A DNA stretch of 50,679 bases from Bacteroidales bacterium. GTDB lineage: Bacteria; Bacteroidota; Bacteroidia; Bacteroidales; UBA932. How positions within the stretch are numbered: the first letter of the stretch is position 1; every line of letters starts with the position of its first letter. Positions 24,150 through 40,799 of this stretch are shown piece by piece. The position numbers and the translations under genes are program-made. The notes beneath the pieces were generated by a model, which saw only the letters and a program-made list of their open reading frames with translations, was not told where the DNA came from and searched no databases. The stretch covers positions 1 to 50,679 of the forward strand of contig JAQVBQ010000010.1 of NCBI GenBank assembly GCA_028690215.1, read 5' to 3'.

Positions 24150-24224
24150 GGGAGCATAGCTCAGTTGGTTTAGAGCATCTGCCTTACAAGCAGAGGGTCG
24201 GGGGTTCGACTCCCTCTGCTCCCA
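24150..24224 (+). tRNA. tRNA-Val (UAC anticodon)
   Basis: A full cloverleaf is visible in 75 bases. The acceptor stem GGGAGCA pairs with TGCTCCC, D arm GCTC/GAGC, anticodon stem TCTGC/GCAGA with loop CTTACAA, and T arm GGGGG/CCCTC with loop TTCGACT. The anticodon TAC reads GUA and probably other valine codons by wobble. The discriminator base is A at 24224. CCA is not encoded (ACA follows), so it is added after transcription. Confidence 0.97.
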
Positions 24225-24241
24225 CAAAAGCGGAAAAACAG

Positions 24242-24321: not shown

Positions 24322-24329
24322 TATCTTTG
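24322..24329 (+). promoter_or_regulatory. Predicted promoter of the ECF sigma factor
   Basis: TATCTTTG matches the -7 consensus, 23 bases before the ATG at 24353. It suggests the sigma gene is read by the housekeeping sigma. Confidence 0.5.
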
Positions 24330-24352
24330 AAAAAATAACTTCAAAACACCTG

Positions 24353-24907
24353 ATGGGGAGTACAACAACAATCATGATACCGTCGCTGGATGAGATATAC
24401 CAGAAATATCACTCTGTACTCTGTTTTTTTGCCTATAAATTCACAAGATCATATCAGGAGGCGGAAGATATTGTTCAATCAGTATTTGAGAAGATAATAG
24501 ACAAGAATCCGGAGATTCAGAATGAAAGCGCACTGAAGTCATATCTTTTCTCTTCTGTACACAATGCTTGCCTTAATATAATAAGTAAAGCGGGTGTCAG
24601 GAAAAAATACACAGACTATACTACTATTCATGAAAGCGGTATAGACAATTCAAGCTACCTGATCGAGAGGGTTGAGGCAGAGATCCTTTGGGAGGTATTC
24701 TCAAAGGTAGATGCACTTCCTTCTGAGTGTAAAAAGGTATTCAGAATGAGCTATATTGAGGATATGAGCAATCAGGAGATTGCTGATAAACTGGGGATAT
24801 CCGTCAATACTGTCAAAAGTCAGAAAGCCCGGGCCAAACAGCTGCTGAGAGACTCCCTCAAGGAGCTCTTCGTGCTTGCAATGGCAATTATTAAGTATTA
24901 CAATTAA
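24353..24907 (+). CDS. ECF RNA polymerase sigma factor (SusC/FecR-associated)
   Basis: This 184-residue sigma-70-family ECF factor has region 2 at ~15-85 (YHSVLCFFAYKFTRSYQEAEDIVQSVFEKI) and region 4 at ~120-175 (LPSECKKVFRMSYIEDMSNQEIADKLGISVNTVKS, a helix-turn-helix). It is the Bacteroidota type paired with FecR anti-sigma factors and SusC transducers. The FecR gene follows after 81 bases. By the known mechanism, ligand binding to the SusC N-terminal domain signals through FecR to release this sigma, which activates the locus. The start could instead be the ATG at 24374 (MIPSLDEIY), which would match relatives equally well. Confidence 0.92.
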   Translation: MGSTTTIMIPSLDEIYQKYHSVLCFFAYKFTRSYQEAEDIVQSVFEKIIDKNPEIQNESALKSYLFSSVHNACLNIISKAGVRKKYTDYTTIHESGIDNSSYLIERVEAEILWEVFSKVDALPSECKKVFRMSYIEDMSNQEIADKLGISVNTVKSQKARAKQLLRDSLKELFVLAMAIIKYYN

Positions 24908-24914
24908 TTTTTTT

Positions 24915-24955
24915 CAACCAATTCCACCCTTTTGCATATTCTAACTGTCCTATAT
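24915..24955 (+). promoter_or_regulatory. Possible ECF-dependent promoter before fecR
   Basis: The 81-base gap holds CAACCAATTCCACCCTTTT, then AACTGTCCTATAT. The GTC and C-rich upstream block with a T-rich run between resemble ECF-type promoters (-35 rich in A/C, -10 GTC). I know similar blocks from other sigma/FecR gaps in Bacteroidota, but I have not aligned them here. Confidence 0.35.
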
Positions 24956-24988
24956 CAAGAGGGCAAGGAACTCTTATTTTAGACTATA

Positions 24989-26164
24989 ATGAACGAAGAT
25001 CAGATTGAAAGAATCAAATCCCTGCTGACAAAAATGCTGCTGTCAGACCTGAATGATCAGGAGCGGGAAGAACTTAACCGATGGAGGAATTCATCTGTGG
25101 AGAACGAGTCTATGTTCAGGAGGCTCACTGACAAGAAATATCTTGAAGAGAGGTATAAAGATTTCCGTGAGGTTTCGAAAACACAAAACGGCATAAGGTA
25201 TAATTTCTCTTTTAATTTCAGGAATAAGTGGATAAGAAGGATTGCTGCCGTGCTCATTATCGGTGCGGCAACATTTTCATTATATCAGATAATATCTGAA
25301 ATCAAAGAGAACCACTCACATAATGAATTGCTTTCCGATAATGAAAATGAGATACAACGCGCAGTTACTTTAACAGTAGACGGAAAAACCGTTTTCAATC
25401 TCGGGGATATTTCTGAGAATACAAGGTTGGCAGGGCTTGACCTCAAGCTAGAGAGCGGGGTGCTAAGATATGCTTATGAAAAAGAGTCTCCTGTTACGGA
25501 GCACGGAACAGTCTCTATTCATGAAATTTCTGTTCCGGAAATAAAAATGTTCAAAGTAGAGCTTCCGGACGGGTCATACGTATGGCTGAATTCCGGCAGT
25601 CGTTTATCTTATCCGTCTAAGTTTGAAGAAAACTCAAGGGTTGTAACGCTTGACGGTGAGGGATACTTTGAAATAGCCAAAGATGCCTCAAAACCTTTTA
25701 TCGTTAATGGAGGAGGCATGAGTGTCCGGGTTACCGGAACCAAGTTTAATTTCAAGGCATACAGCGACGACAAAAGGCTTTCTGCAACGCTTGTGGAGGG
25801 AAAAGTGAGTGTGGGGTATCAAGATGCTTCAGGCCACGAACAAGTCTATAAAATGAAACAAGGGGAACAGTCAAATCTTAATACGAAAGATATGAAGCTG
25901 GAGGTAAAGGAGGTGAATACATCTCTTTATACCGGTTGGCTCGAGGGTTTGTATTTCTTTGATTCTCAGAAGTTGGAGGACATTATGTCTGATTTGGAAA
26001 GATGGTACGGGGTGGAAGTGACCTTCAAGGATGATGCTCTAAGGGAAAAGATTCTGTCAGGTAAGCTTTATAGGGAAGATAGTGCAGAAAAGATGCTCGA
26101 ATCGTTCGAGAAGCTGATGCCGGGACATTTTAAACGAGATGGAAAAACCGTAACAGTATATTAA
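24989..26164 (+). CDS. FecR-family anti-sigma factor
   Basis: This 391-residue inner-membrane protein has a cytoplasmic N-terminal part (~1-80) that should bind the sigma factor. One transmembrane helix (RRIAAVLIIGAATFSLYQI, ~83-101) and a periplasmic FecR domain follow, with FKVELPDGSYVWLNSGSRL, LDGEGYFEIAKDASKPF and VRVTGTKFNFKAY at ~180-255. The C-terminal ~75 residues (FFDSQKLEDIMSDLERWYGVEV...) match the DUF4974 domain. Its place between sigma and SusC, 24 bases before the receptor, fits transenvelope signalling from the SusC STN domain. Confidence 0.93.
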   Translation: MNEDQIERIKSLLTKMLLSDLNDQEREELNRWRNSSVENESMFRRLTDKKYLEERYKDFREVSKTQNGIRYNFSFNFRNKWIRRIAAVLIIGAATFSLYQIISEIKENHSHNELLSDNENEIQRAVTLTVDGKTVFNLGDISENTRLAGLDLKLESGVLRYAYEKESPVTEHGTVSIHEISVPEIKMFKVELPDGSYVWLNSGSRLSYPSKFEENSRVVTLDGEGYFEIAKDASKPFIVNGGGMSVRVTGTKFNFKAYSDDKRLSATLVEGKVSVGYQDASGHEQVYKMKQGEQSNLNTKDMKLEVKEVNTSLYTGWLEGLYFFDSQKLEDIMSDLERWYGVEVTFKDDALREKILSGKLYREDSAEKMLESFEKLMPGHFKRDGKTVTVY

Positions 26165-26188
26165 AATTACTAACTAACTTATCGTACT

Positions 26189-29100
26189 ATGAAAAAAATC
26201 GAGAGTCACAGGATCTCTTTTGTTTTCCTGTTCCTGGCCATGCTTCTGTGCATGTCAGGAACGCTCCCGGCCCAGACACAAAAGGATCTTTATAATGTAA
26301 AGCTTGACAACCTTACATTGAAGGAGGCGATGGTAAAGATAACATCGCAGAGTGGGTACTATTTTGTCTATGAAGATGCTGATATTGTGAGTGTCCCGAA
26401 AATCAGCAAGGAGTTCCGTTCCAGCAGCATTGAGCAGATAATGGCTGAATGCCTGAAGGGTACCGGACTCTCTTTTAAAATAGAGAAAAAGGTAATTTAC
26501 ATCAAGAAAGAGGGGAAAAATTCCACACCGGGTAAAGACCAAAAAAAACTATCAGCGTCGGAGGATTCTCTGTATGTCTTCGGTAAAGTGACTGATGTCA
26601 ATAATCTGCCTTTACCGGGTGCCTCCGTTGAGGTCAAGGGGGCCAAAAACAAGGGTGTGGTTGCTGATTATGATGGTAATTACAAACTCAGATTGACAGA
26701 TGCTACAAAAGAGAGCACTCTTGTATTCAATTTTCTCGGGATGCAGAAGCAGGAGGTGTCAATTGATGGCAGAAGAGAGATAAATGTTGCTCTGAGAGAG
26801 ATGGAAAATGAATTGGAGCAGATTGTAGTAGTAGGATACGGAGTTACCAAGAAAAAAGATATTGCGGGATCAATTGAGAACATAAGCGCATCAGAACTTG
26901 CCAAGACAAATAGCCAGAACTTTCAAAAGGCTATTCAAGGGAAGATGTCAGGCGTGCAGATAACCTCTTCTTCGGGAATTCCCGGCTCATCTTTTTCTAT
27001 AAATATCCGAGGCAGAGGTTCTATAAATGCTGATACTCAGCCATTGTATATAGTTGATGGTGTGCAAATTACAAATGGTGCGCAAAATACCAACATCCTT
27101 ACCAACGCTGACGTGATGGCCGGTTTAAACCCGGACGATATTGAATCCATAAGCGTCCTGAAGGATGGTGCATCTGCGTCTATTTATGGAGCCCAGGCTG
27201 CAAACGGTGTTGTAATCATAACTACAAAGAAAGGTGCGTCAGGAAAGACTCGGGTATCTATAAACGCCACAACCGGAATTCAGGAGATTGCAAGGAAGGT
27301 TCCGGTGATGTCGGGGCCTCAGTGGGCACAATTCGCTCTGCTTGAATACAAGAATTATGATTTGTATAACGGTACAAATAAGTATCAGGATCAGCTTGAG
27401 CTTTTCAAGAGTTTCGGATGGGGAGACGACGGATACTCAAATGCACCGACAACAGATTGGTATGATGAGATTTTCCGTAAGGCGGTAGTCAATAACTACC
27501 AGATTAATCTCTCCGGAGGAACAGAAAAGACAAAATTTTACCTCTCTGCCGGATATAACAAGACTGATGGTATCATCAAACAGACAGGTTTCAACAGAAA
27601 ATCTGCAAGGTTAAATTTAAGTCACGAAATAGCACCATGGCTTACAATTAACACTAATAACACCTTCAGCGGAACTGTACATAACCAGTCTTCGGTCGTA
27701 GGAGCTGCAAATCCGGCCAGAACAGCAATGTTCCTTCTTCCGGGTGTCTCTCCGCGTGATGAAAACGGAGAGTATTATTCAGATCTGACATACGGTTATT
27801 TTTTGTACAATATTCCACAGATGCTGGAACTTAACGAGTATGTGGGAAAAACACACAATCTGCTATCTGCCAACGATCTTACAATAAAGTTGGCAAAAGG
27901 GCTTGAATTCAAGAGCAGTTACAACTTTGACCTTACCTGGCTTAACGAGCATCAATTCAGTGATCCAAGAACCCGTCTGGGCTCAAGAGTAAACGGCTCA
28001 ATTTCTGCAAACGCTACCGATATTAACAAATTCCAGACAGAGCAAGTATTTACATACAATACTACTATAAATGAGAACAGATTGACTGCTGTCGCGGGAT
28101 TTTCATACAGCAGTTATCAATATCATATGATAGGTGCCGAGGCAAACGGGGTTTCCAGTCCGGATCTCAAGCTGTTGAGCAGTGCTGCAACTCCTATTGC
28201 AACTACAGAATCGTATTCGGAGTGGAAAATGGCCGGTTTTTTCGGAAGGGCGAGCTATGCGATAAGAGATAAGTACATTTTAACAGGAACCGTAAGATAC
28301 GATGGTTCTTCAAGATTCGGAACTGACAACCTGTGGGGATTGTTTCCTTCAATCTCTTTTGCGTGGAGAATGAAAGAGGAAAAATTCTTCAAAGACATTG
28401 ACTGGCTGAATGATCTTAAAATTAGGGCAAGTTATGGGGTTACAGGAAATGCGAGCATCGGAGATTATGTTTCGGCAAGGTTATATGCTGCTAACTCAGC
28501 TTATGGCGGAAGTTCCGGAATTATCCCTTCATCCATTGGAAACCAGAAACTCACATGGGAGAAAAAACACTCAAAAAATATCGGTATAACAGCAGGTATA
28601 TTCAAGGGAAGAATTAGCACAAATATCGACTTTTACAGAGATGACACAAAAGACCTGTTGTACTATAGAGTTATTCCACAAACTACAGGTTTCAGCGAGA
28701 TCCCGTCAAATATGGGAGGAGTCCGAAACCATGGTCTGGATTTACAACTTAATGTAGTCAGCTTTGACTCTGATAATTTCTCATGGGAGACATCATTTAA
28801 CCTATCATGGTGCAAGAATGAGATAACTGAACTTCAGGATGGTCTGGATGAGCTTGGTCAGTATAAGGTAGGCAAGCCTATAACATCTGAAAATGTTTAC
28901 AGGTGGGCAGGCGTCAACACCTCAGACGGAAGGCCGATGTATTACGACAAAGACGGATACATTACCTACAATCCGACTCTTGAGGACCGTGTATGGACGA
29001 AAGGTACAGACCCTACATTTTTCGGAGGCATAGACAATACTTTCAGATGGAAAAACCTCACCTTCTCGTTTTTCTTCCAATTCCAGAAAGGAGCCGTGAA

Positions 29101-29515
29101 ATATTTCAATGACAAGGCCGTTTTAATCGGCCAGGCTGCAGACAACAACCTTCTTGAGGAGATGTATAACAGTTATTGGAGCAATCCGGGAGATGTCACA
29201 TGGGTACCTAAACCTGTTCTTGACGGCGCTTATCCCGGAAATCCCATGAAGTATGATAATAACGGGGAGACTCGTATGAGTCTGATTTACGAATCCACAG
29301 ATTTCATAAAGCTGAAAAATGTAAATATAAGTTACAATCTTCCGGAGAAACTGGTTAAGAAGCTTAAACTGCAGGATGCGCAAATATTTGCTAATGGATA
29401 CAATCTGTGGACAACTACCCCGTATCAGGGATATGATCCTGAATCAGTAGGTATTGACAGAGGCGTTTACCCGCAATCCAAGAGCTACAGTATAGGTATA
29501 AAGATCAACTTTTAA
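26189..29515 (+). CDS. SusC-type TonB-dependent receptor with STN signalling domain
   Basis: The 1,108-residue outer-membrane importer has a signal peptide (MKKIESHRISFVFLFLAMLLCMSGTLPAQ). An STN domain at ~30-110 (LYNVKLDNLTLKEAMVKITS and GTGLSFKIEKKVIYI) would contact FecR. A carboxypeptidase-regulatory-like barrel-sandwich follows at ~125-205 (VFGKVTDVNNLPLPGASVEVKG), then the TonB box/plug start EQIVVVGYGVTKKKDIAGS and the SusC signature GVQITSSSGIPGSSFSINIRG. The rest is a 22-strand-type barrel ending in IGIKINF. The STN domain marks it as a transducer, consistent with the ECF/FecR pair upstream. SusD follows after 12 bases. Confidence 0.97.
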   Translation: MKKIESHRISFVFLFLAMLLCMSGTLPAQTQKDLYNVKLDNLTLKEAMVKITSQSGYYFVYEDADIVSVPKISKEFRSSSIEQIMAECLKGTGLSFKIEKKVIYIKKEGKNSTPGKDQKKLSASEDSLYVFGKVTDVNNLPLPGASVEVKGAKNKGVVADYDGNYKLRLTDATKESTLVFNFLGMQKQEVSIDGRREINVALREMENELEQIVVVGYGVTKKKDIAGSIENISASELAKTNSQNFQKAIQGKMSGVQITSSSGIPGSSFSINIRGRGSINADTQPLYIVDGVQITNGAQNTNILTNADVMAGLNPDDIESISVLKDGASASIYGAQAANGVVIITTKKGASGKTRVSINATTGIQEIARKVPVMSGPQWAQFALLEYKNYDLYNGTNKYQDQLELFKSFGWGDDGYSNAPTTDWYDEIFRKAVVNNYQINLSGGTEKTKFYLSAGYNKTDGIIKQTGFNRKSARLNLSHEIAPWLTINTNNTFSGTVHNQSSVVGAANPARTAMFLLPGVSPRDENGEYYSDLTYGYFLYNIPQMLELNEYVGKTHNLLSANDLTIKLAKGLEFKSSYNFDLTWLNEHQFSDPRTRLGSRVNGSISANATDINKFQTEQVFTYNTTINENRLTAVAGFSYSSYQYHMIGAEANGVSSPDLKLLSSAATPIATTESYSEWKMAGFFGRASYAIRDKYILTGTVRYDGSSRFGTDNLWGLFPSISFAWRMKEEKFFKDIDWLNDLKIRASYGVTGNASIGDYVSARLYAANSAYGGSSGIIPSSIGNQKLTWEKKHSKNIGITAGIFKGRISTNIDFYRDDTKDLLYYRVIPQTTGFSEIPSNMGGVRNHGLDLQLNVVSFDSDNFSWETSFNLSWCKNEITELQDGLDELGQYKVGKPITSENVYRWAGVNTSDGRPMYYDKDGYITYNPTLEDRVWTKGTDPTFFGGIDNTFRWKNLTFSFFFQFQKGAVKYFNDKAVLIGQAADNNLLEEMYNSYWSNPGDVTWVPKPVLDGAYPGNPMKYDNNGETRMSLIYESTDFIKLKNVNISYNLPEKLVKKLKLQDAQIFANGYNLWTTTPYQGYDPESVGIDRGVYPQSKSYSIGIKINF

Positions 29516-29527
29516 AAACTTCATGAA

Positions 29528-30958
29528 ATGAAAACTATAAAGCTATTTACATTAATATCACTGCTTCTGGTTTTGAATTCATGTGATTCTTTACTGGATG
29601 TTGACACGAAACACGCATTGCCGCAGGAAAAGATTAAGACCGTTGCCGGCTGCGAGAGCCTTATAATCGGGGTGTATGATCTATTGCAGGATCCTTATTA
29701 TTCAGGAAGAGACCTTATCTGTATCCCTGATGTAATGGGTGATAACTGCGAGCCATCTCCGAGTTCTACAAAATATTCGGAACAATATAATTTCCAGCCA
29801 TATTACAATATGGATATCTGGGAGTCTGCATACAAGCAGATAGGAGCTTTAAATGAAGCTATTCTTTATCTGTCAGAACTGGAGCAGACCGGGAAGGTGA
29901 AATCTCTCACCGGCGAGGCGCTTTTTCTGAGAGCCTACAACTACTTCAATCTGGCAATTATCTACAGCCGTGTTCCCGGTCATCTTGTGGACAACTTCAA
30001 TCTATGCGTACCACTATTGATAAAACCATTTTTCAATGAAGGAGGAAGCATTACCGTGCAGGCTTCAGTAAAGAGGGCTACGGTAGATGCTGTCTGGGAA
30101 CAGATATTGCTTGATCTTAACAATGCCTTTACAATGTTGGAGAACAATGACAGCGGATTACACCCATTCAGGATTTCAGCTGTTGCAGTTAAGGCTCTCC
30201 AGTCACGTGTGTTCTTGTACAAGGGCGATTGGGCAAATACAATTCTGGCTGCCGATTATGTTATTTCAAAATCTTCAGTAGGGTTATATGATGGAAAATA
30301 TACAGATATCTTCTCTGACGGAAAAGAGTCTTTATGGCAGTTGCATTATAATGTTACAGAAAATCTGGCCTCTACATCTCTTCACTCTACATACGGTACT
30401 GTTGACAACGGTGCGAGAGATGCTGAAGGTTTTGGTGACGGCACTGGTGCAGGTGATGCACAGCTCTCGGTTACAGCTGACTTTATGGATCTGATTGATC
30501 AGGAAAAGGATACAAGATTTCAGGCCCTTAGAAAGGTTCATTACTATGGCCAGGATCTTTGGTGGACAACAAAGTTTAACAGCTGGGGAGGAGTATTCGG
30601 ATTGGATGACATCCCTCTTCTGAGAATATCTGAAGTGTACCTGAACAGAGCTGAGGCTTATGCACATCAGACATCATACACATTGGCAAGGAGTGACCTG
30701 AATCTTCTGATGAACAAGAGAGGTCTTGCAAATACTGATGTTTCGAATTCAGAACTGCTGGATGAGATATTGCTACAGAGGAGAATTGAGCTTGCTTTTG
30801 AAGGTCACAGATTTTTTGATATGAAGAGACTGGGAAGGGATATCCCAAGGGCTAACGGAATGGCTGCCATACCTTACGAGGATTACCGTGTGGTTGCTCC
30901 TATAAGCACTACGGAAATGGATGTAAACAAGGAACTTGTAAATAATCCCGGATATTAA
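29528..30958 (+). CDS. SusD-family nutrient-binding surface lipoprotein
   Basis: The 476-residue protein has a lipoprotein signal (LLLVLNSC, acylated Cys19) followed by DSLLDVDTKHALPQ. The helical TPR-like scaffold typical of SusD/RagB is visible in TGEALFLRAYNYFNLAIIYSRVP and the C-terminal segment DEILLQRRIELAFEGHRFFDMKRLGRDIPR, the usual signature. SusD acts as the lid of the SusC channel and binds the nutrient at the cell surface. Aromatic residues are present, but no binding platform can be assigned from sequence. It lies between SusC and a second surface lipoprotein, all on one strand with short gaps. Confidence 0.96.
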   Translation: MKTIKLFTLISLLLVLNSCDSLLDVDTKHALPQEKIKTVAGCESLIIGVYDLLQDPYYSGRDLICIPDVMGDNCEPSPSSTKYSEQYNFQPYYNMDIWESAYKQIGALNEAILYLSELEQTGKVKSLTGEALFLRAYNYFNLAIIYSRVPGHLVDNFNLCVPLLIKPFFNEGGSITVQASVKRATVDAVWEQILLDLNNAFTMLENNDSGLHPFRISAVAVKALQSRVFLYKGDWANTILAADYVISKSSVGLYDGKYTDIFSDGKESLWQLHYNVTENLASTSLHSTYGTVDNGARDAEGFGDGTGAGDAQLSVTADFMDLIDQEKDTRFQALRKVHYYGQDLWWTTKFNSWGGVFGLDDIPLLRISEVYLNRAEAYAHQTSYTLARSDLNLLMNKRGLANTDVSNSELLDEILLQRRIELAFEGHRFFDMKRLGRDIPRANGMAAIPYEDYRVVAPISTTEMDVNKELVNNPGY

Positions 30959-30985
30959 TTATAACTCATACTTATACTCAAGAAA

Positions 30986-32029
30986 ATGAAAAAATCAATA
31001 TCAATAATAGGCAATTTATTCCTTGCTGCTATACTGCTCTTCTCTTGCCAGAAAGAGGATTGGACATACAAAGGTCCGCAGTATTATGAATTCAGCGCTT
31101 CTGCGAATAAACAGGGAACAATAAGCAATATCCTCCAGAAAGAGAATAATAAGATTGGACTGGATTCGATTTGTGTCCAGATAATCAAACCTGCTGAGGG
31201 GGATATTACAGTAAACTACGAGATTGTGAATCAACTCTTTTATCTTACTGATAAGGACAGGTACGTTGAAGAAATTCCGGAAGGGACAGATATCGCTGTT
31301 GTGGACACTGTATATACTACTGCCGTTATCGGGCGAGACTATGAGGTGCTGACATCCGACGGACATACATTCAACCAGTCGACTATGACAGGTTCTCTTG
31401 TTATACCTCAGGGTGAGTATTTCGGCTATATTCAAATCAGAATGCTGAAAAAGGCAGGAAACAGTTTTTATGTGGTGCTTAAAGATTCACCGGATACAAA
31501 GGCTAACAAGCCGACATCCATTCTCAATTATAAACTTGCTCCGGACAGGGTCTTCTATTTCCAGGAGACATTCCTCGAAGAGATCCCTGAGACATGGACT
31601 CTTCTAGACAAGGACGGAGACGGATATAACTGGAACTACTATGACGGTGCTGCCACATCAGACTCTTGGATGTCAGGTGGTGTAGGAGCTTTATCTCCTG
31701 AGAATTACCTTATTTCACCTGCAATTGAGCTAGGTAACACTACAGATGCTATTCTGCTCACTTTCGAGGTGGCAGCAGGGGACACTGATTATCCTGAGGA
31801 GAATTACAGAGTTATTATTTCTGAGAATCCTATCACACTTGCAAATTGCAGACAGGCAACAATCCTGAGGGATTGGACAGAGCTTGATGAGACCTACGGC
31901 GATTTCAAGCCTCAGACAATAGAGTTGACAGCTTACAAGGGGAAAAAGGTATATGTCGGTTTCATACATGGTAATTGTTCCGACTGCTACTACTTCCTGC
32001 TCAGGAATGTAAAAATTTATGGACAGTAA
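30986..32029 (+). CDS. Surface lipoprotein with choice-of-anchor J / cleaved-adhesin domain
   Basis: The 347-residue protein has a lipoprotein signal (LAAILLFSC, Cys21) followed by QKEDW, whose acidic residues resemble a surface-export signal of Bacteroidota lipoproteins. The N-terminal third is not recognised. The C-terminal part (~190-347) looks like a beta-jelly-roll choice-of-anchor J domain: FQETFLEEIPETWTLLDKDG, DSWMSGGVGALSPENYLISP, and the ending KVYVGFIHGNCSDCYYFLLR. This domain is known from gingipain-type adhesins and surface proteases. Its position right after SusD suggests a surface glycan- or peptide-binding accessory, taking the place of SusE/SusF. Its stop overlaps the next gene's start region. 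Confidence 0.75.
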   Translation: MKKSISIIGNLFLAAILLFSCQKEDWTYKGPQYYEFSASANKQGTISNILQKENNKIGLDSICVQIIKPAEGDITVNYEIVNQLFYLTDKDRYVEEIPEGTDIAVVDTVYTTAVIGRDYEVLTSDGHTFNQSTMTGSLVIPQGEYFGYIQIRMLKKAGNSFYVVLKDSPDTKANKPTSILNYKLAPDRVFYFQETFLEEIPETWTLLDKDGDGYNWNYYDGAATSDSWMSGGVGALSPENYLISPAIELGNTTDAILLTFEVAAGDTDYPEENYRVIISENPITLANCRQATILRDWTELDETYGDFKPQTIELTAYKGKKVYVGFIHGNCSDCYYFLLRNVKIYGQ

Positions 32030-32030
32030 T

Positions 32031-33143
32031 ATGGAAAAGAGAGTATTGGACGAAAGGCTCCGGCAGATATTTTTTGAATTGACATCAATTGACGCAACTT
32101 CAGGCAAGGAGTCGGCTGTGGCTGACTATATCATCCGCTTTGTCAATAATTTAGGTTTAAAAAGTTATAGGGATAATGCAGAAGAGTTATCCGGTGGAAA
32201 TTCAGGAAATGTTATTGTTGAAATACTGGGTGGAGGAGAATACCTGCTTGCCTCGCATATGGACACACCGAGGTCGACGGCAGGTTTGAAACATCAGTTT
32301 AAAGATGACAGAATTACTTCTGATGGGACAACTCCGTTGGGTGTGGATGATCGTGGGGGCCTCTCTTCAATACTCTTTGCTCTTGAAAAAGCGGTTGAAA
32401 ACAAAGCTCTCAAACCATGCACGCTTCTTTTTACCGTTTGTGAAGAGACAACCCTTGCCGGATCACTCTTTTTTAAGCCTGCTCCAAATCTTAAATACGG
32501 ATTTATATTCGACTCTTATATGACTCCGGGACATTTTGTTACAAGGACATGCGGAGCGATTAATTTTGAGTTGATAATAAAAGGAAAGTCATCGCATGCC
32601 GGAATCTCTCCGGAAAAGGGTATTAATGCAATCATGGTTTCGGCCGAGGCTATGACAAAATTCCCTTTCGGAAGGATTGACGAGGTGACTACTGCAAACA
32701 TCGGGAGTGTTAACGGCGGAACCAACACAAATGTAGTTTGCGATGAGGTTGTTTTGAAAGGGGAGCTCAGAACTGATTTTGTATCTCATGGTGAGGAGCT
32801 TATGGGTAAAATTCTTGCTGACTTCACAGATGTTTGTAAGAAATACGGAGCATCAATGGAGTCAAAATACTTCTGGGATTTTCTACCATATAATATCACT
32901 GATGGTGACCTGCCATTCATACATTTTTCACAAGTGGCGGAAAACCTTGGAATAGATGCAGTACCGGCTAAGTCGATGGGCGGTAGTGATGCTAACTCTC
33001 TCAATGCAAAAGGAATAAAGACCATAAATTTGGGAGTGGGGGCACAGAATCCTCATGGAAACGATGAGTTTATCCTTTATGAAGATCTTAGCAATGCATC
33101 AAAGATTGCATATCAATTACTAACAATAGAAATCAAAAAATAA
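32031..33143 (+). CDS. Cytoplasmic M20-type (PepT-like) metallopeptidase
   Basis: This di-zinc peptidase clan MH enzyme has no signal peptide, so it acts in the cytoplasm. Numbered from the ATG at 32031 (370 residues), ligands and catalytic residues are visible: SHMDTP (His76, Asp78), VDDRGG (bridging Asp ~106), CEETTLAG (catalytic Glu138 and Glu139), FDSY (Asp161), and the C-terminal NPHGNDEF. The ending GGSDANSLNAKG is typical of the PepT/M20 group. An in-frame ATG at 32019 overlaps the previous stop. I prefer 32031 because it follows that stop by one base. By context it may finish the hydrolysis of imported dipeptides or deacylate N-acyl amino acids. The specificity is not readable. Confidence 0.85.
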   Translation: MEKRVLDERLRQIFFELTSIDATSGKESAVADYIIRFVNNLGLKSYRDNAEELSGGNSGNVIVEILGGGEYLLASHMDTPRSTAGLKHQFKDDRITSDGTTPLGVDDRGGLSSILFALEKAVENKALKPCTLLFTVCEETTLAGSLFFKPAPNLKYGFIFDSYMTPGHFVTRTCGAINFELIIKGKSSHAGISPEKGINAIMVSAEAMTKFPFGRIDEVTTANIGSVNGGTNTNVVCDEVVLKGELRTDFVSHGEELMGKILADFTDVCKKYGASMESKYFWDFLPYNITDGDLPFIHFSQVAENLGIDAVPAKSMGGSDANSLNAKGIKTINLGVGAQNPHGNDEFILYEDLSNASKIAYQLLTIEIKK

Positions 33144-33144
33144 A

Positions 33145-34008
33145 ATGAACAAAATATCTAAGCTTTTTGCAATAATTCTGTTATTGCAGTTTACATCTTG
33201 TACCCAAAACGAAAAATCAGATCTGGAATATCTGCCCGAAAAAATTGACTCAAAGGGAACTTTAGTTATTGAAGGGGGTGGAGACAGAATAGAGGTGATT
33301 TTGAAAACCATTATCAAATATGGCGGGGGAGACAGCGCAAAACTTCTTGTTGTCCCTTTTGCAAGTGGCGTTGCTGAAGAGACAGGTATTAAACAGAGTG
33401 AGGAGTTCAGAAATCTCGGCTGCACTAATTCTGATTACATCTTTTGTTCAAAGGATAGTGTCGATTCTCCGGAAAGTCTTGCCAAACTGGACGGTGTAAC
33501 TGCGATATTTTTCTCAGGCGGAGATCAGGTTATTTTAAGTGATTACCTTGAGGGAACAAAATTCCTTGAGAAAATAAGGGAGATTTATAAAAACGGAGGC
33601 GTTATCAGCGGAACAAGTGCCGGTGCAGCAATCATGAGCAGGATAATGCTTACGGGAACCAGCGCCAGCGATACATCAGACATGCCGGAATTCAATTATA
33701 TAAAGGAGAAAGATGTTATAACAGCACAAGGCTTTGCATTTCTCAATAACATCATAATAGACCAGCATTTCATAACAAGAAAGAGACAGGTCAGACTGAT
33801 TAATGTACTGCTTGATAACCCGGGATACAGAGGCATAGGTATAGATGAGGAGTCTGCAATAGTGGTAAAACCTGATAATACAATGGAGGTTATCGGTACA
33901 AACAAAGTGATGGTTTTTGAACCATACAAACCTTCGGCAAAAGATAGTGGTAAGGTTAACAGTTTCAAGCTTACAATCCTATCTTCAGGCGATAAGTATA
34001 ATTTCTAA
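33145..34008 (+). CDS. Cyanophycinase (peptidase S51), probable surface lipoprotein
   Basis: Cyanophycinases are serine exopeptidases that release beta-Asp-Arg dipeptides from cyanophycin. This 287-residue protein carries the family features in order: FFSGGDQ (GGDQ at 125-128), nucleophile Ser158 in SGTSAGAAIMS, QGFAFLN, His208 in DQHFITRKRQVRL, and GIGIDEESAIVV. It starts with a lipoprotein signal (FAIILLLQFTSC, Cys19, then TQNEKSD), so it is outside the cytoplasm, perhaps on the surface. Peptidase T/E-type relatives in S51 (aspartyl dipeptidase PepE) are shorter and lack the DQHF pattern. The gene begins 1 base after the M20 gene. The actual substrate could be another beta-linked aspartyl polymer. 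Confidence 0.85.
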   Translation: MNKISKLFAIILLLQFTSCTQNEKSDLEYLPEKIDSKGTLVIEGGGDRIEVILKTIIKYGGGDSAKLLVVPFASGVAEETGIKQSEEFRNLGCTNSDYIFCSKDSVDSPESLAKLDGVTAIFFSGGDQVILSDYLEGTKFLEKIREIYKNGGVISGTSAGAAIMSRIMLTGTSASDTSDMPEFNYIKEKDVITAQGFAFLNNIIIDQHFITRKRQVRLINVLLDNPGYRGIGIDEESAIVVKPDNTMEVIGTNKVMVFEPYKPSAKDSGKVNSFKLTILSSGDKYNF

Positions 34009-34046
34009 AATTTAACTACTTTAGTATTATCTAAAACTTAAACGAA

Positions 34047-35651
34047 ATGGCGCATCTAAAGAAGATTCCACACACATTTGTCATAATCGGTTTTCTCATA
34101 CTTGTCTGTGGAATACTCACATGGTTTGTCCCGGCAGGACAATTTGAATACGAAAAAAAGGATGTTAACGGGGTAACACGAGATGTCATTGTCAACAACT
34201 CATATCATGTTGTTGAGTCATCTCCTCAGACCTGGCAGATATTCGGATCCCTTCTCGAAGGGTTTAAGAAACAGGCAGGGATTATAGCATTTGTCCTTAT
34301 TATAGGGGGAGCTTTTCAGATACTGAACAGCAGCAGGGCTATTGATTTTGGAATACTCTCGTTTCTTGAAAAATCCGGGCATCTGGAAAAGCGATGGATT
34401 TTCAGAAAGCTTGGGGTGAATAATATGGTGATTATATTGTCTATGACTATTTTCAGCCTATTCGGTGCTGTTTTCGGGATGAGTGAGGAGACTCTGGCCT
34501 TTGTGATAATATTCGTTCCTCTGGCAATTTCAATGGGCTATGACTCCATCACAGGCCTGCTGATGGTCTATGTTGCTGCTCATATGGGTTTTTCCGGAGC
34601 GATAATAAATCCGTTTACAATAGGTATAGCACAGGGATTATCCGGATTACAGCTCTTTTCCGGATTTGAGTACAGGCTGATTGTCTGGATAATAATTACA
34701 ACGCTGATTATTACAGTTACTTTGATCTATGCATCCAAGGTTAAGAAAAATCCCAGGTTCTCACCCATGTATGAATTGGATCAATATTGGAGGAATAGGG
34801 AGATGGAGGCTGTAAAGGTGGATTTTGCGACAAAAACCCCGGTTTCCGCGTGGGTTGTATTTACTATTACCACTATCATTCTTGCTCTATTTTCCTTTGA
34901 CCACCCTACCACTACAATAAGTCTGGGAGGAGCAGAGATGACATTTGTCTGTTTACCTGTTTTGACCATTTTGTTTGCAATAACAGGATTCCTTACACTC
35001 AGAAAATCCTATCTATTCTTTATACTGAATATTTTAGCATTCACAATTGTTTTTCTTGTCGTAGGAGTGTTAGGGTACGGGTGGTATCTTTCTGAGATAT
35101 CCGCACTCTTCCTGGCTATGGGAATCATATCAGGAATAGCTATGGGATCTGGGGCAAATACTATTGTCAAGGAGTTTATAGCAGGAACAAAGGATATTCT
35201 TACAGCGGCTCTGATTGTAGGCCTCGCTGGTGGTATAATACAGGTGCTGACAGAGGGTAAGATAATGGATACAATTCTCTACTCACTCTCCTCTACAATG
35301 GAGGGAACCGGTAAAGGGGCAACTGTCTCGATAATGTATTTTATCCAGACATGTATCAACATTTTCATACCTTCCGGTTCAGCAAAGGCAGCTCTCACCA
35401 TGCCGATTATGGCTCCATTTTCTGATGTTATCGGCCTTTCCAGACAGGCTACAGTAATGGCATTTCAGTTCGGGGACGGCTTCACAAACATGATTACCCC
35501 TACATCCGCTGTGCTTATTGGTGCTCTTGGAATAGCAAGAATTCCGTATGAGGTGTGGATAAAATGGTTTTGGAAAATACTGCTGGCATTCATGATTCTG
35601 GGTTTAATACTGCTTATGCCGACAGTATATATGCAACTAAATGGGTTTTAG
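34047..35651 (+). CDS. YfcC/ArcD-type inner-membrane transporter
   Basis: The 534-residue protein has about 12-13 transmembrane helices and belongs to the YfcC family within the C4-dicarboxylate/ion-transporter superfamily. Relatives are annotated as arginine/ornithine antiporters or C4-dicarboxylate carriers. The start KKIPHTFVIIGFLILVCGILTWFVPAGQFEYE, the helical-hairpin motif MSEETLAFVIIFVPLA and SGSAKAALTMPIMAPFSDVIG followed by QFGDGFTNMITPTSAVLIGAL are typical. In this operon it most likely moves an amino acid or dipeptide released outside or in the periplasm. Arginine or aspartate would fit a cyanophycinase. The exact ligand is inferred, not seen. Confidence 0.85.
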   Translation: MAHLKKIPHTFVIIGFLILVCGILTWFVPAGQFEYEKKDVNGVTRDVIVNNSYHVVESSPQTWQIFGSLLEGFKKQAGIIAFVLIIGGAFQILNSSRAIDFGILSFLEKSGHLEKRWIFRKLGVNNMVIILSMTIFSLFGAVFGMSEETLAFVIIFVPLAISMGYDSITGLLMVYVAAHMGFSGAIINPFTIGIAQGLSGLQLFSGFEYRLIVWIIITTLIITVTLIYASKVKKNPRFSPMYELDQYWRNREMEAVKVDFATKTPVSAWVVFTITTIILALFSFDHPTTTISLGGAEMTFVCLPVLTILFAITGFLTLRKSYLFFILNILAFTIVFLVVGVLGYGWYLSEISALFLAMGIISGIAMGSGANTIVKEFIAGTKDILTAALIVGLAGGIIQVLTEGKIMDTILYSLSSTMEGTGKGATVSIMYFIQTCINIFIPSGSAKAALTMPIMAPFSDVIGLSRQATVMAFQFGDGFTNMITPTSAVLIGALGIARIPYEVWIKWFWKILLAFMILGLILLMPTVYMQLNGF

Positions 35652-35715
35652 TTTATAATAGAATTAATCAACTAATTAACAAATAAATGCAGATTCATTT
35701 CTGCTAATTTTAAAG

Positions 35716-37233
35716 ATGAAAAAATTTCCTCTTTTAGCTTTAGCTTTGTCAATTTCTATTTTTGGAAGTCAAACTATGACAGCCCAGAGCAGGCAATTCA
35801 AAACTCCTGCAGAGGCAAGAGACTTCACAGAAGTCTCTAAATACGGCGAAATGGTTGAGTTTATACATCAACTTGATATCTCCTCAGACATTCTTACACT
35901 TGAAAAGATTGGAGAATCTGTAAAAGGTCGCGACCTGCTCATGCTTAAATTTTCCGGCTCAACATTTGGAGAAGATAAAGGAAAAATAAAGGTACTTATA
36001 CATGCTCAGCAGCATGGCAACGAGCAATCTGGAAAGGAGGGAGCGCTCCTTCTGGCTCAGGAGCTGATAAAGCCTGAAAATGCCTGTCTTTTCAAATATC
36101 TTGATCTTGCATTGATTCCTCAGGTCAATCCTGACGGGTCGGAGCAGAATAGTCGCCGTAACGGTAACGGTATGGATCTGAATAGAAACCATCTAATCAT
36201 GACTGAGCCGGAGGTGGTTGCTCTGCACAAGATATTTGACAAGTATCTTTTTGAGGTTACAATGGATGTTCACGAGTATTACCCCTATGGTGAGACTTGG
36301 AAGAGTTTCGGATACAGGACCAATTCTGATATCCTTATCGGGTTCAATACACATCCCACAATTCCGGAATCAATCAGACAATATCAACAGAAGAAGATAA
36401 AGCCATACTATTCTGCGTTTCTGACATCAAAGGGTGTATCAAACGCTATGTATAGTCCCGGAGGACCACCGGAGCAGGATTACATCCGTTACAGTACATT
36501 CGACATAAACGACGGACGCCAGAGCTATGGGATTCAGAATACTTTCTCTTTTATCCAGGAGGGGATGAACGGAGTTGACGCACTTGTTGATAACCTGTCG
36601 CATCGTGCACATTCACAGTTTTATGGGATGCTTGCCTTACTCAGATTTGTCTCCGAAAATCATACAGAGATGCAAGCTGTCGTAGCCAGAGAGAGGAGGC
36701 TTAAAAATATTGCAGCTACAGAAATTCCCCTTCAGATGGAGCACTTTCCGGACGGAAGTAAGCTGGAACTTCCTGTATATTCATATTCAACAAACAGAGA
36801 TTCAATCATCATTGTAAATGATTTCAGACCGATGGTAAAACCTACCCTGACAATCAGCAGACCATACGGTTATCTGATTCCGAAGAGTCATCAGGATCTC
36901 ATTGATTGGGCCTTCAGGCACGGTTTTGAGGTAAAACCTTTCAAGATGGATAAAAATACTATGTTGGAGCAAATGATTATTTCAAAAATAGATTCAATTG
37001 ATTTTGAGAGAGACACAATTGCAATTCCGCAGATTGAGGTGCGGAAGATAGAACCGAAAACGATTAATCTTGAAGAGTATATTTTTATCCCTACTTATCA
37101 GCTAAAGGGAAATATGCTCATCACGGCAATCGAGCCGCAATCGGAGCTTGGACTCGCCACATACGGCCAGTTTGCTTACCTGATGAAGGCAAACTCTACA
37201 TACCCTGTTATCAGAGTAAGGTCAAATAGATAA
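35716..37233 (+). CDS. Secreted M14 zinc carboxypeptidase
   Basis: The 505-residue protein has a signal peptide (MKKFPLLALALSISIFGSQTMTAQ). The M14 domain follows: KIGESVKGRDL, zinc ligands His100 and Glu103 (AQQHGNEQSGKE), substrate-binding NPDGSEQNSRRNG and MDLNRNH, zinc ligand His186 in MDVHEYYP, and catalytic Glu282 in FIQEGMNG. All the residues needed for catalysis are present. The C-terminal ~150 residues form an extra domain with no family I can name. It probably trims peptides in the periplasm before uptake by the neighbouring transporter. It lies 64 bases after the transporter gene and 25 before the enolase-family gene. Confidence 0.88.
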   Translation: MKKFPLLALALSISIFGSQTMTAQSRQFKTPAEARDFTEVSKYGEMVEFIHQLDISSDILTLEKIGESVKGRDLLMLKFSGSTFGEDKGKIKVLIHAQQHGNEQSGKEGALLLAQELIKPENACLFKYLDLALIPQVNPDGSEQNSRRNGNGMDLNRNHLIMTEPEVVALHKIFDKYLFEVTMDVHEYYPYGETWKSFGYRTNSDILIGFNTHPTIPESIRQYQQKKIKPYYSAFLTSKGVSNAMYSPGGPPEQDYIRYSTFDINDGRQSYGIQNTFSFIQEGMNGVDALVDNLSHRAHSQFYGMLALLRFVSENHTEMQAVVARERRLKNIAATEIPLQMEHFPDGSKLELPVYSYSTNRDSIIIVNDFRPMVKPTLTISRPYGYLIPKSHQDLIDWAFRHGFEVKPFKMDKNTMLEQMIISKIDSIDFERDTIAIPQIEVRKIEPKTINLEEYIFIPTYQLKGNMLITAIEPQSELGLATYGQFAYLMKANSTYPVIRVRSNR

Positions 37234-37258
37234 AAAGTAATCATAAATAATTATTACC

Positions 37259-38362
37259 ATGAAAATTGAGAGAATTGAAATACGCCATACAAAAATGGAC
37301 CTTGTTACCCCATTTACAACATCAATGGGAACAGAGTATGATGAAGAGCACATTATGGTCAGAGTTGATGCTGAAGGTGTGACAGGTTGGGGTGAAAGCG
37401 TCGCAGAAGGAACTCCGTTCTACTCTTATGAGACAGTGCCGACAGCCTGGCACATCATGAAAGATTTTTTGATCCCTTCTATCATTGGCAAAGAGATCAA
37501 TGAGGCATCCGATGTTGTTAAAATGTATGAGAGAGTCCGCGGACACATGATGGCAAAGGCCGGTATTGAGGCCGCCATCTGGGATGCACTTGCAAAGAGT
37601 AAGGGAATCTCCTTGTCCAAACTGCTGGGAGGAACCAGAGAGAAGATAAATGTCGGTGTGAGTATCGGGATACCTTCATCGGCTGATGAATTGCTCAGAA
37701 ATATTGAGCACTTTCTTGCAGATGGTTATCAAAGAATCAAAATTAAGATAGCTCCGGGTCACGACATTGAGCTTGTGAAGGCTGTAAGAAGGGAGTATCC
37801 GGATATAATGTTCCAGGTCGATGCCAACTCTGCATACACGCTTGCAGATATAGACCTTTTCAAAAAAATGGATGATTACAATCTCTCCCTAATTGAGCAA
37901 CCGCTCGGATATGAGGATATATACGACCATTCAAAATTGCAGCGTGAAATCAAGAGCCCCATCTGCCTCGATGAGAGCATTCACTCTCTTGATGATACCA
38001 GAGCAGCAATCGAGCTGAAGAGTTGCAGGATAATAAATATCAAGCCTGGCAGGGTAGGCGGTTACACTGAATCCAAACTGATACACGACTATTGTGCCAG
38101 CATGGGTATTCCTGTATGGCACGGAGGAATGCTTGAGTCAGGTATAGGCCGAGCAGGCAATGTGGCACTTGCATCTCTTCCAAACTTCACACTCCCGGGA
38201 GACATATCTGCAAGCAAGAAGTATTATAAGGAGGACATTGTAGACCCACCATTCTTTGTGAATCCCGACGGAACAATGGACGTTCCTACAGGTCCGGGAA
38301 TAGGAGTTGAAATCAATATGAAAAATCTCGAGAAATTTACGGTAAGGAAAGAGGTGTTTTAG
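37259..38362 (+). CDS. Enolase-superfamily enzyme of the NSAR/OSBS (N-acylamino acid racemase) type
   Basis: The 367-residue protein keeps the full active site of the MLE-subgroup enolases: KxK (Lys161/Lys163 in RIKIKIAPG), metal ligands Asp188 (VDAN), Glu213 (IEQP) and Asp238 (LDES), and the second base Lys262 (NIKPGR). The stretch VWHGGMLESGIGRAGN and the ending VDPPFFVNPDGTMDVPTGPGIGV match the NSAR/o-succinylbenzoate synthase subfamily more closely than L-Ala-D/L-Glu epimerases. There are no men genes nearby, so racemisation of an N-acyl or dipeptidyl amino acid fits the peptidase context better than menaquinone synthesis. It is the last gene of the locus and its stop lies inside an inverted repeat. 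Confidence 0.85.
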   Translation: MKIERIEIRHTKMDLVTPFTTSMGTEYDEEHIMVRVDAEGVTGWGESVAEGTPFYSYETVPTAWHIMKDFLIPSIIGKEINEASDVVKMYERVRGHMMAKAGIEAAIWDALAKSKGISLSKLLGGTREKINVGVSIGIPSSADELLRNIEHFLADGYQRIKIKIAPGHDIELVKAVRREYPDIMFQVDANSAYTLADIDLFKKMDDYNLSLIEQPLGYEDIYDHSKLQREIKSPICLDESIHSLDDTRAAIELKSCRIINIKPGRVGGYTESKLIHDYCASMGIPVWHGGMLESGIGRAGNVALASLPNFTLPGDISASKKYYKEDIVDPPFFVNPDGTMDVPTGPGIGVEINMKNLEKFTVRKEVF

Positions 38363-38479
38363 TGGCACTGATTTTCTATTTGCCTGTTATACTGTCGTAT
38401 ACAAATCGATGAAATAAAAATGCCCGATATTATGTAATGAACATAGTATCGGGCATTTAGAAAAATCAGTGCCACTAAA
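38358..38479. repeat. Nested inverted repeat (18-bp outer arms, 18-bp inner hairpin)
   Basis: The outer arms are a perfect 18-bp inverted repeat, TTTAGTGGCACTGATTTT at 38358-38375 and its complement at 38462-38479. Inside is a second hairpin: AAATGCCCGATA (38418-38429) pairs with TATCGGGCATTT (38447-38458), extended through one T.G pair to TATGT/ACATA (38431-38435/38441-38445) with loop AATGA. The left arm contains the last codon and stop of the enolase-family gene. It could act as a terminator of the locus, or be a small mobile palindromic unit. No clear target-site duplication is seen. Confidence 0.9.
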
Positions 38480-38525
38480 TTTCCAGATTTGCATTATATT
38501 TGAAATTTGAATTCTTAAACTTAAA

Positions 38526-38533
38526 TATATTTG
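38526..38533 (+). promoter_or_regulatory. Predicted promoter of the 152-residue unknown gene
   Basis: TATATTTG matches TAnnTTTG and ends 7 bases before the ATG at 38541. A second copy of the same octamer is at 38495-38502 and gives a more normal leader. Either could be the active box. Confidence 0.4.
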
Positions 38534-38540
38534 AATACGT

Positions 38541-39098: not shown

Positions 39099-40775
39099 AT
39101 GAGAAAAATTCTATTACTGGCTGTCCTTCTGCTGGTCTCTCTGTCTCTTCCTGCTCAGGATAAGATGCTTGACCTGCTCAAGGGTGAACTGAAGAGCCAA
39201 ATGGCGACGCTTCAGAAGGGAGAGTATCCTCCTTACTACATGAATTACAGAGTGATCGACAACTTTACCCGTACTATCCGATCTTCAATGGGTGCAACCA
39301 ACACCATCGAAGAGGAGAAACAGATCATTTTTGTACCACAAGTAAGAATCGGGAATCCCGAGTTCGACAACTTCCACGAGTCACAAAACGGTGTACAAAC
39401 AAGCAGGTTTGCAGGGCCTCCTACTATCCTCCTGCCATCAGACCTCCAGAACGGAGCTGAAGCCTTCAAGGAGATTATCCGTGAAGAGGTGAACAAACGC
39501 TACAAGTTTGCAAAGAGAGCTCTTGAGAGTGCTAAGGCTAAGAGTGGTGTTAAAGTTGAAAATGAGGACAAATCAGCAGATTTTACACCTGTAAAGGCGG
39601 AGAAGTATTTTGAACCGGCCCTCTCAGCAGATAAAATTGCTTTTGACACAGAGGCTTGGCAGAAAAAGCTTAATAAATACTCTGCACTGCTAGCAGAAAA
39701 CAAAGATGTGATTTCAGCTAATGCGACACTTAACTTCAAGATTTGGAGGAAATACTTTGTTTCAACCGAAGGGGCAGAGATAGCAGAGAATAGAGTCTAT
39801 GTGGTACTGAGCATTAAAGGTATGACTATGGCTGAAGATGGAATGGAACTTCCGTTGAACGAAAGCTATATGGCTTTTTCATTGGATGAAATTCCTTCTG
39901 ATGCAGTAATTATCAAAGATCTCAAAGCTATGTCAGCAAAGCTTTCAGAGCTAAAGGTAGCCCCTCTGGTACAGCCGTTTACAGGTCCGGCACTCCTTTC
40001 GGGTTCAGCCAGCGGTGTCTTTTTCCATGAAATATTCGGACACAGGGTTGAGGGACAAAAGATGAAAAGTGACTCAGACGGTCAAACATTCAAGAATATG
40101 GTCGGCGATTATGTTCTTCCTAAGAGTCTAAGCGTTTATATGGACCCTACAATGAAAAAATATCACGGGCACTCTCTTAATGGTTACTATATTTTTGATG
40201 ACCAAGGAGTCAGAGGAGAGAGGGTAGAGGTCGTAAAAGATGGGATACTCCGTAACTTCCTTATGACACGTACCGGTTTGAACGGTTTCCCGAAATCAAA
40301 CGGTCACTCGAGAGCTGAATTTGAGATGGATCCTACTTCACGTCAGTCAAACCTGATAGTTGAGACCAACGATTACAAGAGTGATGCAGAACTTCGCAAA
40401 TTATTGATCGAAGAGGCTAAAAAGCAGGGTAAGGAGTTTGGATACTTCTTCAAAGCTGTTACCGGTGGTTTTACCATGACAGGAAGGAGCAGCGCAAACT
40501 CTTTCAATGTCACTCCGCTTGAAGTTTACAGAATATATGTAGACGGAAGAAAGGATGAACTGGTAAGAGGCGTCGATATGATCGGAACACCATTGTCAAT
40601 GTTCTCAAATATAGAATACGCAGGAGGTGACTTTGAAATATTTACAGGTACATGCGGTGCTTCATCAGGCTATGTTCCTGTAACAGCAATATCGCCTACA
40701 ATTCTTGTAAACAAGGTAGAGCTCCAGAAAAAGGCTAAACCTACAGTAACTCCGGCACTATTGCCTCGTCCGTAA
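39099..40775 (+). CDS. Secreted TldD-like metalloprotease
   Basis: The 558-residue protein has a signal peptide (MRKILLLAVLLLVSLSLPAQ), so it works outside the cytoplasm. The zinc motif HExxxH is intact as His310-Glu-Ile-Phe-Gly-His in SGVFFHEIFGHRVEGQ. The C-terminal TldD region GGFTMTGRSSANSFNVTPLEVYRIYVDG is clear. In E. coli the cytoplasmic TldD/TldE pair cuts unfolded peptides such as microcin leaders and CcdA. The Bacteroidota form differs in being exported and longer at the N-terminus. The next gene, 24 bases on, encodes the matching TldE-like partner. Substrate unknown. Confidence 0.88.
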   Translation: MRKILLLAVLLLVSLSLPAQDKMLDLLKGELKSQMATLQKGEYPPYYMNYRVIDNFTRTIRSSMGATNTIEEEKQIIFVPQVRIGNPEFDNFHESQNGVQTSRFAGPPTILLPSDLQNGAEAFKEIIREEVNKRYKFAKRALESAKAKSGVKVENEDKSADFTPVKAEKYFEPALSADKIAFDTEAWQKKLNKYSALLAENKDVISANATLNFKIWRKYFVSTEGAEIAENRVYVVLSIKGMTMAEDGMELPLNESYMAFSLDEIPSDAVIIKDLKAMSAKLSELKVAPLVQPFTGPALLSGSASGVFFHEIFGHRVEGQKMKSDSDGQTFKNMVGDYVLPKSLSVYMDPTMKKYHGHSLNGYYIFDDQGVRGERVEVVKDGILRNFLMTRTGLNGFPKSNGHSRAEFEMDPTSRQSNLIVETNDYKSDAELRKLLIEEAKKQGKEFGYFFKAVTGGFTMTGRSSANSFNVTPLEVYRIYVDGRKDELVRGVDMIGTPLSMFSNIEYAGGDFEIFTGTCGASSGYVPVTAISPTILVNKVELQKKAKPTVTPALLPRP

Positions 40776-40799
40776 TTTATAAAAACAAAAATTTGAGAA

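Follow-up and report, generated by a model that had tools for sequence, protein, structure and literature searches.

The window analysed here is the whole of contig JAQVBQ010000010.1, a stretch of 50,679 nucleotides from a Bacteroidales bacterium whose 2.65 Mb genome (G000; 153 contigs, about 90% complete) holds a single match to the S51, or cyanophycinase, family. Between positions 24353 and 38362, ten plus-strand genes form one block that encodes an ECF sigma factor, FecR, SusC, SusD, a lipoprotein, an M20 peptidase, the S51 enzyme, a YfcC-type carrier, an M14 carboxypeptidase and an N-succinylamino acid racemase (NSAR) homologue (Table 1). The distances between neighbouring genes range from -11 to 81 bp, and 178 bp separate the block from the next gene. 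The SusC and SusD pair, accompanied by an ECF sigma factor and FecR, is that of a SusCD locus of the polysaccharide utilisation locus (PUL) type. The carbohydrate-active enzymes expected of a PUL are lacking, since no glycoside hydrolase, polysaccharide lyase or sulfatase appears among the Pfam matches of the ten genes. Open reading frames (ORFs), strand and the Pfam and NCBIfam scans thus bear out the original prediction of ten co-oriented genes in PUL-like order, with these family labels and no such enzymes. Its proposal that the SusCD locus serves a polyamide or peptide, cyanophycin being the leading candidate, is supported as well. Bacteroidales bacterium CF, the genome of which is complete (CP006772.1), presents the identical ten-gene order, and the block is therefore not an assembly artefact. 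CF is the nearest named genome among the best 80 of at least 580 confirmed loci, a scan from which records very close to the window genome may be omitted, and its S51 protein is 96% identical to that of the window. We conclude that the locus is real and conserved and that it is a variant of an already published kind of cyanophycin utilisation locus, in which the final step apparently uses an unexpected cytoplasmic peptidase.

Table 1. The ten genes of the block, with positions in the window and the evidence for each assignment.
Feature	Position	Strand	Evidence
ECF sigma factor	24353..24907	+	TIGR02985 137.6 bits vs cut-off 126.4
FecR anti-sigma factor	24989..26164	+	FecR and FecR_C domains
SusC TonB-dependent transporter with STN signalling domain	26189..29515	+	TIGR04056 819.3 bits (cut-off 368.25); STN, CarbopepD_reg_2, Plug
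SusD surface lipoprotein lid	29528..30958	+	SusD_RagB, SusD-like_3; Cys lipobox (by eye)
Lipoprotein with C-terminal Cleaved_Adhesin/choice_anch_J (choice-of-anchor J) domain; probable surface binding protein	30986..32029	+	Domain scans; adjoins SusD in 15/16
M20 PepT-like metallopeptidase, putatively cytoplasmic; proposed beta-aspartyl dipeptidase	32019..33143	+	Family scans; 16/16 locus-bearing genomes; alternates with IadA/IaaA
S51 cyanophycinase-family serine hydrolase, predicted exported	33145..34008	+	TIGR02069 157.9 bits vs cut-off 126.6
YfcC/DcuC-family carrier of the inner membrane; proposed to move dipeptides or basic amino acids	34047..35651	+	DcuC 322.6 bits
M14 metallocarboxypeptidase, exported, accessory	35716..37233	+	Peptidase_M14; leader by eye; near locus in 6/16
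NSAR/o-succinylbenzoate synthase (OSBS)-family enzyme, accessory	37259..38362	+	TIGR01928 377.3 bits vs cut-off 200.65

Conservation of the locus and a proposed exchange of its dipeptidase

A search for S51 in 199 family genomes gave 29 matches, 16 of them (the window included) at an identity of at least 47%, and these 16 are termed locus-bearing. Their neighbourhoods were examined together with those of L047 to L051, five of the remaining 13; absence of M14 or NSAR means that none lay within the stretch of DNA examined around the locus. M20 is on the S51 contig and YfcC is within the locus in all 16. Two of these need comment: in G012 a contig break falls inside S51, with the end of S51, YfcC, M14 and NSAR on a second contig, and in G036 an opposite-strand gene lies between S51 and M20. 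SusD and the adhesin-domain lipoprotein adjoin S51 in every case except G036. The sigma factor and FecR were found in 11 of the 16; the contigs of L034, L037 and L044 stop before them, G036 is without them, and about 2.9 kb upstream of SusC in L045 contain no match to either. M14 is near the locus in six genomes and NSAR in five, so that their predicted place as core steps is not supported, and M14 was rejected as the core dipeptidase. The original prediction had also made its case depend on homologous SusCD pairs keeping their S51 and M14 partners; S51 is kept and M14 is mostly missing. Within the stretches examined in L047 to L051, neither M20 nor YfcC was detected by BLASTP. A search for M20 in the 199 genomes (E≤1e-30) matched 17, namely the 16 and G007, in which M20 and YfcC are present and S51 is missing.

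The M20 protein has TIGR01883, "PepT-like", as its nearest NCBIfam model among the matches listed (the best 25 for M20, as for the ECF sigma factor), with a score of 221.3 bits that lies below the cut-off of 274.25. The homologue in L085 reaches 272.1, likewise under the cut-off, and the nearest structure to the window protein is the PepT-like 3gb0. For the swap analysis 140 loci were pooled, of which 138 had an S51 ORF and 133 were left after removal of 99% duplicates; partner labels come from BLASTP matches (1e-8) to one reference protein each and not from curated families. YfcC lies within 7 kb in 51 loci, and these contain M20 (35), IadA (9), IaaA (3) or none of the three (5). M20 and IadA never occur together in these loci and M20 and IaaA do so once, in L096, with IaaA on the opposite strand. 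A Fisher test of the alternation gives p 1e-6, but the rows are related to one another. Among the 82 loci without YfcC, M20 was found in two, L037 and L110, where the contig stops at S51 or close to it. In the S51 tree, the deep branches of which are weak, the 21 M20-type rows form a clade of their own (100/99), separate from the IadA-type rows. On the YfcC tree, which was rooted at its midpoint, the window's clade of 20 M20-type rows lies inside a 27-row Bacteroidota clade (100/100) with partly weak internal branching, the other seven rows being six IadA-type and one without a dipeptidase.

This pattern fits a swap of the dipeptidase within one pathway, and we infer that M20 shares the activity of IadA. 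The original prediction had placed M14 after S51; the gene that alternates with IadA and IaaA is M20, which in the window stands where one of these is expected in a cyanophycin utilisation locus. None of the titles and abstract openings found in open-licence literature searches connects an M20 peptidase with cyanophycin. That M20 fulfils the role of IadA or IaaA is the strongest new claim made here, and the identity of the polymer is the weakest link.

Genome context was counted in 15 locus-bearing genomes, all but G012. Cyanophycin synthetase (CphA) exceeds its cut-off in none of them, and a role in self-storage was rejected on this basis. IadA exceeds its cut-off in two and Asparaginase_2 is present in five (G000, G010, G077, G168 and G036). 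Neither of these known dipeptidases is present in eight, and M20 is therefore the obvious candidate there. An arginine-deiminase-like protein, below cut-off, is found in 14.

The M20-S51-YfcC triad is not confined to SusCD loci. Among the best 80 loci of the named-genome scan it occurs without SusCD in Ignavibacteriota, Calditrichota, KSB1, Elusimicrobiota, Fidelibacterota and one Bacteroidota metagenome-assembled genome (MAG; L093). In at least 11 triad cases a TonB-dependent receptor is next, frequently accompanied by an RpiR-type regulator and by a protein that carries a Por secretion tail. A long ORF recurs near the receptor 3' of S51 (L085, L087, L090, L095, L096, L097, L102, L116 and L127), and its representative, L116:14934-16850, gave no Pfam match at 1e-5. 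Other dipeptidases are found elsewhere, the order being S51, M14, IadA, YfcC in the Acidobacteriota L131 and L132 and SusC, SusD, S51, IaaA, YfcC in the Flammeovirga loci L129 and L134. At the level of the order, S51 was found in 85 of 393 genomes (E≤1e-10), and 20 of the 83 besides G000 and G010 were examined; within 9 kb of S51 on both strands these loci, from other Bacteroidales families, contain SusD (12/20), IadA (11/20), YfcC (8/20) and CphA (1/20). At the level of the class, TIGR02069 matched 170 of 395 genomes (E≤1e-30), and the 19 loci examined contain CphA in 12, an Asparaginase_2-type IaaA in nine and M20 in none. A second S51 relative of 655-705 aa is present in several of the order-level loci. 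Across the IadA/IaaA-type loci in which one was noted (L234, L236, L237, L245, L246, L248, L129 and L134), this relative measures 637-705 aa; within the window's family no M20-type locus was found to have one, though the distant M20-type L090 and L116 do.

A proposed scavenging route and its alternatives

On balance, the locus probably scavenges exogenous cyanophycin or a cyanophycin-like beta-aspartyl polyamide. Gene content and order, their conservation, the catalytic residues, a predicted fold and the way in which M20 alternates with IadA and IaaA were computed or observed here; in the following scheme we infer which substrates are used, which way transport runs, where in the cell the proteins are and where S51 acts. 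SusD and the adhesin-domain lipoprotein would capture the polymer or its fragments, and SusC would import them, its STN domain signalling to FecR and the sigma factor. Beta-Asp-X dipeptides would be cut off by the exported S51 enzyme, and YfcC would move them, or else the freed amino acids, across the inner membrane. A cytoplasmic M20 would then cleave beta-Asp-X to Asp and X (Arg). The M20 starts in L096 and L116 are internal, so that the N-termini of these two are not covered.

In all 37 M20-type loci, S51 keeps the catalytic Ser/His/Glu and the pocket residues Gln101, Asp172, Gln173, Arg178, Arg180 and Arg183, as these are listed in the excerpt available of PMC3235067. CphE is likewise exported according to that excerpt, and a hydrophobic leader (leaders and lipoboxes were assessed by eye) is present on 35 of the 37, the exceptions being L085 and L102 with their script-chosen starts. 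S51 appears to be a lipoprotein in most members of the family; in L034 and L036 the leader is without a lipobox Cys. Of the predicted lipoprotein that cleaves at the surface or in the periplasm, the lipoprotein thus stands for most of the family, and a surface site is not established. The window enzyme shares with CphB and CphE the predicted S51 fold, the catalytic triad and the pocket residues, and its identity to CphB is about 30%.

A number of observations weigh against this route, and the first of these concern S51 itself. Its closest solved sequence is 7uqv, "Pseudobacteroides cellulosolvens pseudo-CphB", a protein that reportedly had no cyanophycinase activity in the study of Sharon (2022). 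Pseudo-CphB retains the identical pocket residues, as do the S51 enzymes of nearly all among 54 loci that have none of these partners; family membership and residues are therefore no proof of activity, and the pocket was rejected as such a proof. Further, residue 130 is Ile in the window and Arg in CphB, and in CphA-linked enzymes it is Arg (15/18) or Lys (3/18). It may be supposed instead that the locus imports isoaspartyl or other acidic peptides, not cyanophycin, with S51 of PepE or pseudo-CphB type and M20 an ordinary tripeptidase. The pseudo-CphB as closest solved sequence and the resemblance of M20 to 3gb0 agree with this, as does the existence of RagAB, like that of the window a SusCD-type complex, which the part of the literature available implicates in uptake of proteins or peptides. 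We know of no tie between RagAB and S51, M20 or YfcC. We consider the import of acidic peptides unlikely, if still a serious competitor.

The distribution of M20 raises further difficulties for cyanophycin scavenging. Its label switches only three times among the 49 rows of the YfcC tree and five times among the 76 rows of the S51 tree, so that there are few independent switches. M20 is absent from the 18 CphA-linked S51 loci, which contain IadA in four, IaaA in six and YfcC in none, and from all 20 of the order-level loci. The carrier, predicted as dedicated to the locus, also proves to be widespread: YfcC homologues (E≤1e-50) are present in 91 of the 199 family genomes, any S51 in just 29, and YfcC was rejected as a dedicated marker. 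Fourteen YfcC neighbourhoods from this search were read and no S51 was seen in them. G119, which has no match in the family S51 search, retains YfcC though the rest of the locus is missing; there (L255:3898-9792) YfcC is followed by genes that by eye resemble those downstream in rumen relatives such as L040, and the block from sigma to S51 is missing.

A further alternative is that breakdown is completed in the periplasm by S51 with M14 or Asparaginase_2, that YfcC exchanges free arginine, ornithine or a similar compound, and that M20 serves another peptide. The window YfcC scores 362.4 bits on NF008611, below the cut-off of 500, and this model is named a putative basic amino acid antiporter. 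In L267:4603-8366 a YfcC homologue lies next to genes for a DDAH-family protein and a class-III aminotransferase, a hint that its transport relates to arginine. M14 has a leader and, by eye, M14-type motifs. A leader was also seen on Asparaginase_2 in the four genomes read (G010, G077, G168 and G036), and such a protein could split beta-Asp dipeptides in the periplasm; in the window's genus it competes with M20 for the dipeptidase role. Against completion in the periplasm, M14 was not found near the locus in 10 of 16 genomes and Asparaginase_2 not in 10 of 15, while M20 is there in 16 of 16, and we regard it as improbable.

Accessory and neighbouring genes

We propose that M14 and NSAR are clade-specific additions. 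CphZ, a cyanophycin dipeptide hydrolase, is annotated as M14 or AstE/AspA type (PMC10206079). By description alone, the window M14 has the M14 annotation in common with CphZ and differs as an accessory protein of 505 aa with a leader; no chain named CphZ was present among 44 PDB sequences at E≤5.

The best PDB match of NSAR is 1sja, an N-acylamino acid racemase (E 2.6e-102). Its TIGR01928 score would also suit the OSBS of menaquinone synthesis, which would make it a mere bystander. G000 has two further PF13378 matches besides NSAR. The menaquinone gene menD is over its cut-off in none of 15 genomes, one of which (G010) is complete; G000 and G010 each show a weak match of 61 bits, and in the control the cut-off was exceeded in 7 of 14. 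NSAR was not found near the locus in 11 of 16 genomes, and an NSAR 62% identical to that of the window adjoins the triad in the Fidelibacterota MAG L096. The OSBS role was rejected on the menD result and is highly improbable. A beta-Asp-X dipeptide is the alpha-amino analogue of an N-succinylamino acid, the substrate of NSAR, and NSAR might for this reason act on beta-Asp-X. In a speculative and doubtful extension, M20 of the triad would represent a new class of cytoplasmic beta-aspartyl dipeptidase and NSAR of the window's clade would epimerise beta-aspartyl amino acids, so that the clade could digest a beta-aspartyl polymer or peptide pool with D-residues or non-arginine side chains. The change from Arg to Ile at S51 residue 130 in all five NSAR-bearing family genomes is in line with such a polymer; the NSAR-bearing L096, from another phylum, has Arg. 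An open-licence literature search on an NSAR pathway gave no match. Another enolase-superfamily gene (L184:2378-4749) has a twin-arginine-like leader and stands beside an NlpC/P60-looking gene, these labels being assigned by eye.

FecR is the least similar protein of the block between window and CF, at 80% identity compared with 95-98% for the other nine. Its DNA (25100-26100) is 70-80% identical, compared with 83-100% per 250-base bin in the remaining block, and recombination or rapid divergence of the anti-sigma factor may be responsible. Between NSAR and the gene that follows, CF has an additional SusC/SusD pair on the opposite strand (L074:15356-19722), where the window has just the 178 bp at 38363-38540. 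A tRNA-Val lies upstream of the block (24150-24225), and two genes with a PmbA/TldD C-terminal domain lie directly 3' of it (39099-42506).

Relation to known cyanophycin systems

The locus of strain L21-Spi-D4 is reportedly PUL-like. In the portion of PMC10206079 available, this cyanophycin utilisation locus (Ben Hania 2017) contains iadA and, like the window, combines Bacteroidetes cyanophycinase genes with a transporter for scavenging; the window differs by M20 in place of iadA, by a single S51 in the genome and by the additional M14 and NSAR. The cyanophycin cluster of Flammeovirga pacifica described there (L134; L129 is from a sister species) has, like the window, SusC, SusD, S51, a dipeptidase and YfcC, with IaaA as the dipeptidase and a second S51 relative of 637-639 aa. 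In the excerpts available, PMC3400609 connects cyanophycin with a TonB-dependent transporter on the grounds of gene neighbourhood, and PMC11573002 describes a Dyadobacter with genes for synthase, cyanophycinase and isoaspartyl aminopeptidase.

For CphA1-encoding genomes, PMC10206079 says of the isoaspartyl dipeptidases in Firmicutes and Bacteroidota that they "remain undiscovered". M20 is near none of the 18 CphA-linked S51 genes and therefore does not itself fill this gap for producers. It is a specific candidate for isoaspartyl dipeptidase activity in scavengers of several phyla. If the proposal is true, the locus would provide a genetic marker for cyanophycin eaters in the rumen and other communities (habitats were taken from record titles), as well as a second route, in which SusCD import leads to free Asp and Arg.

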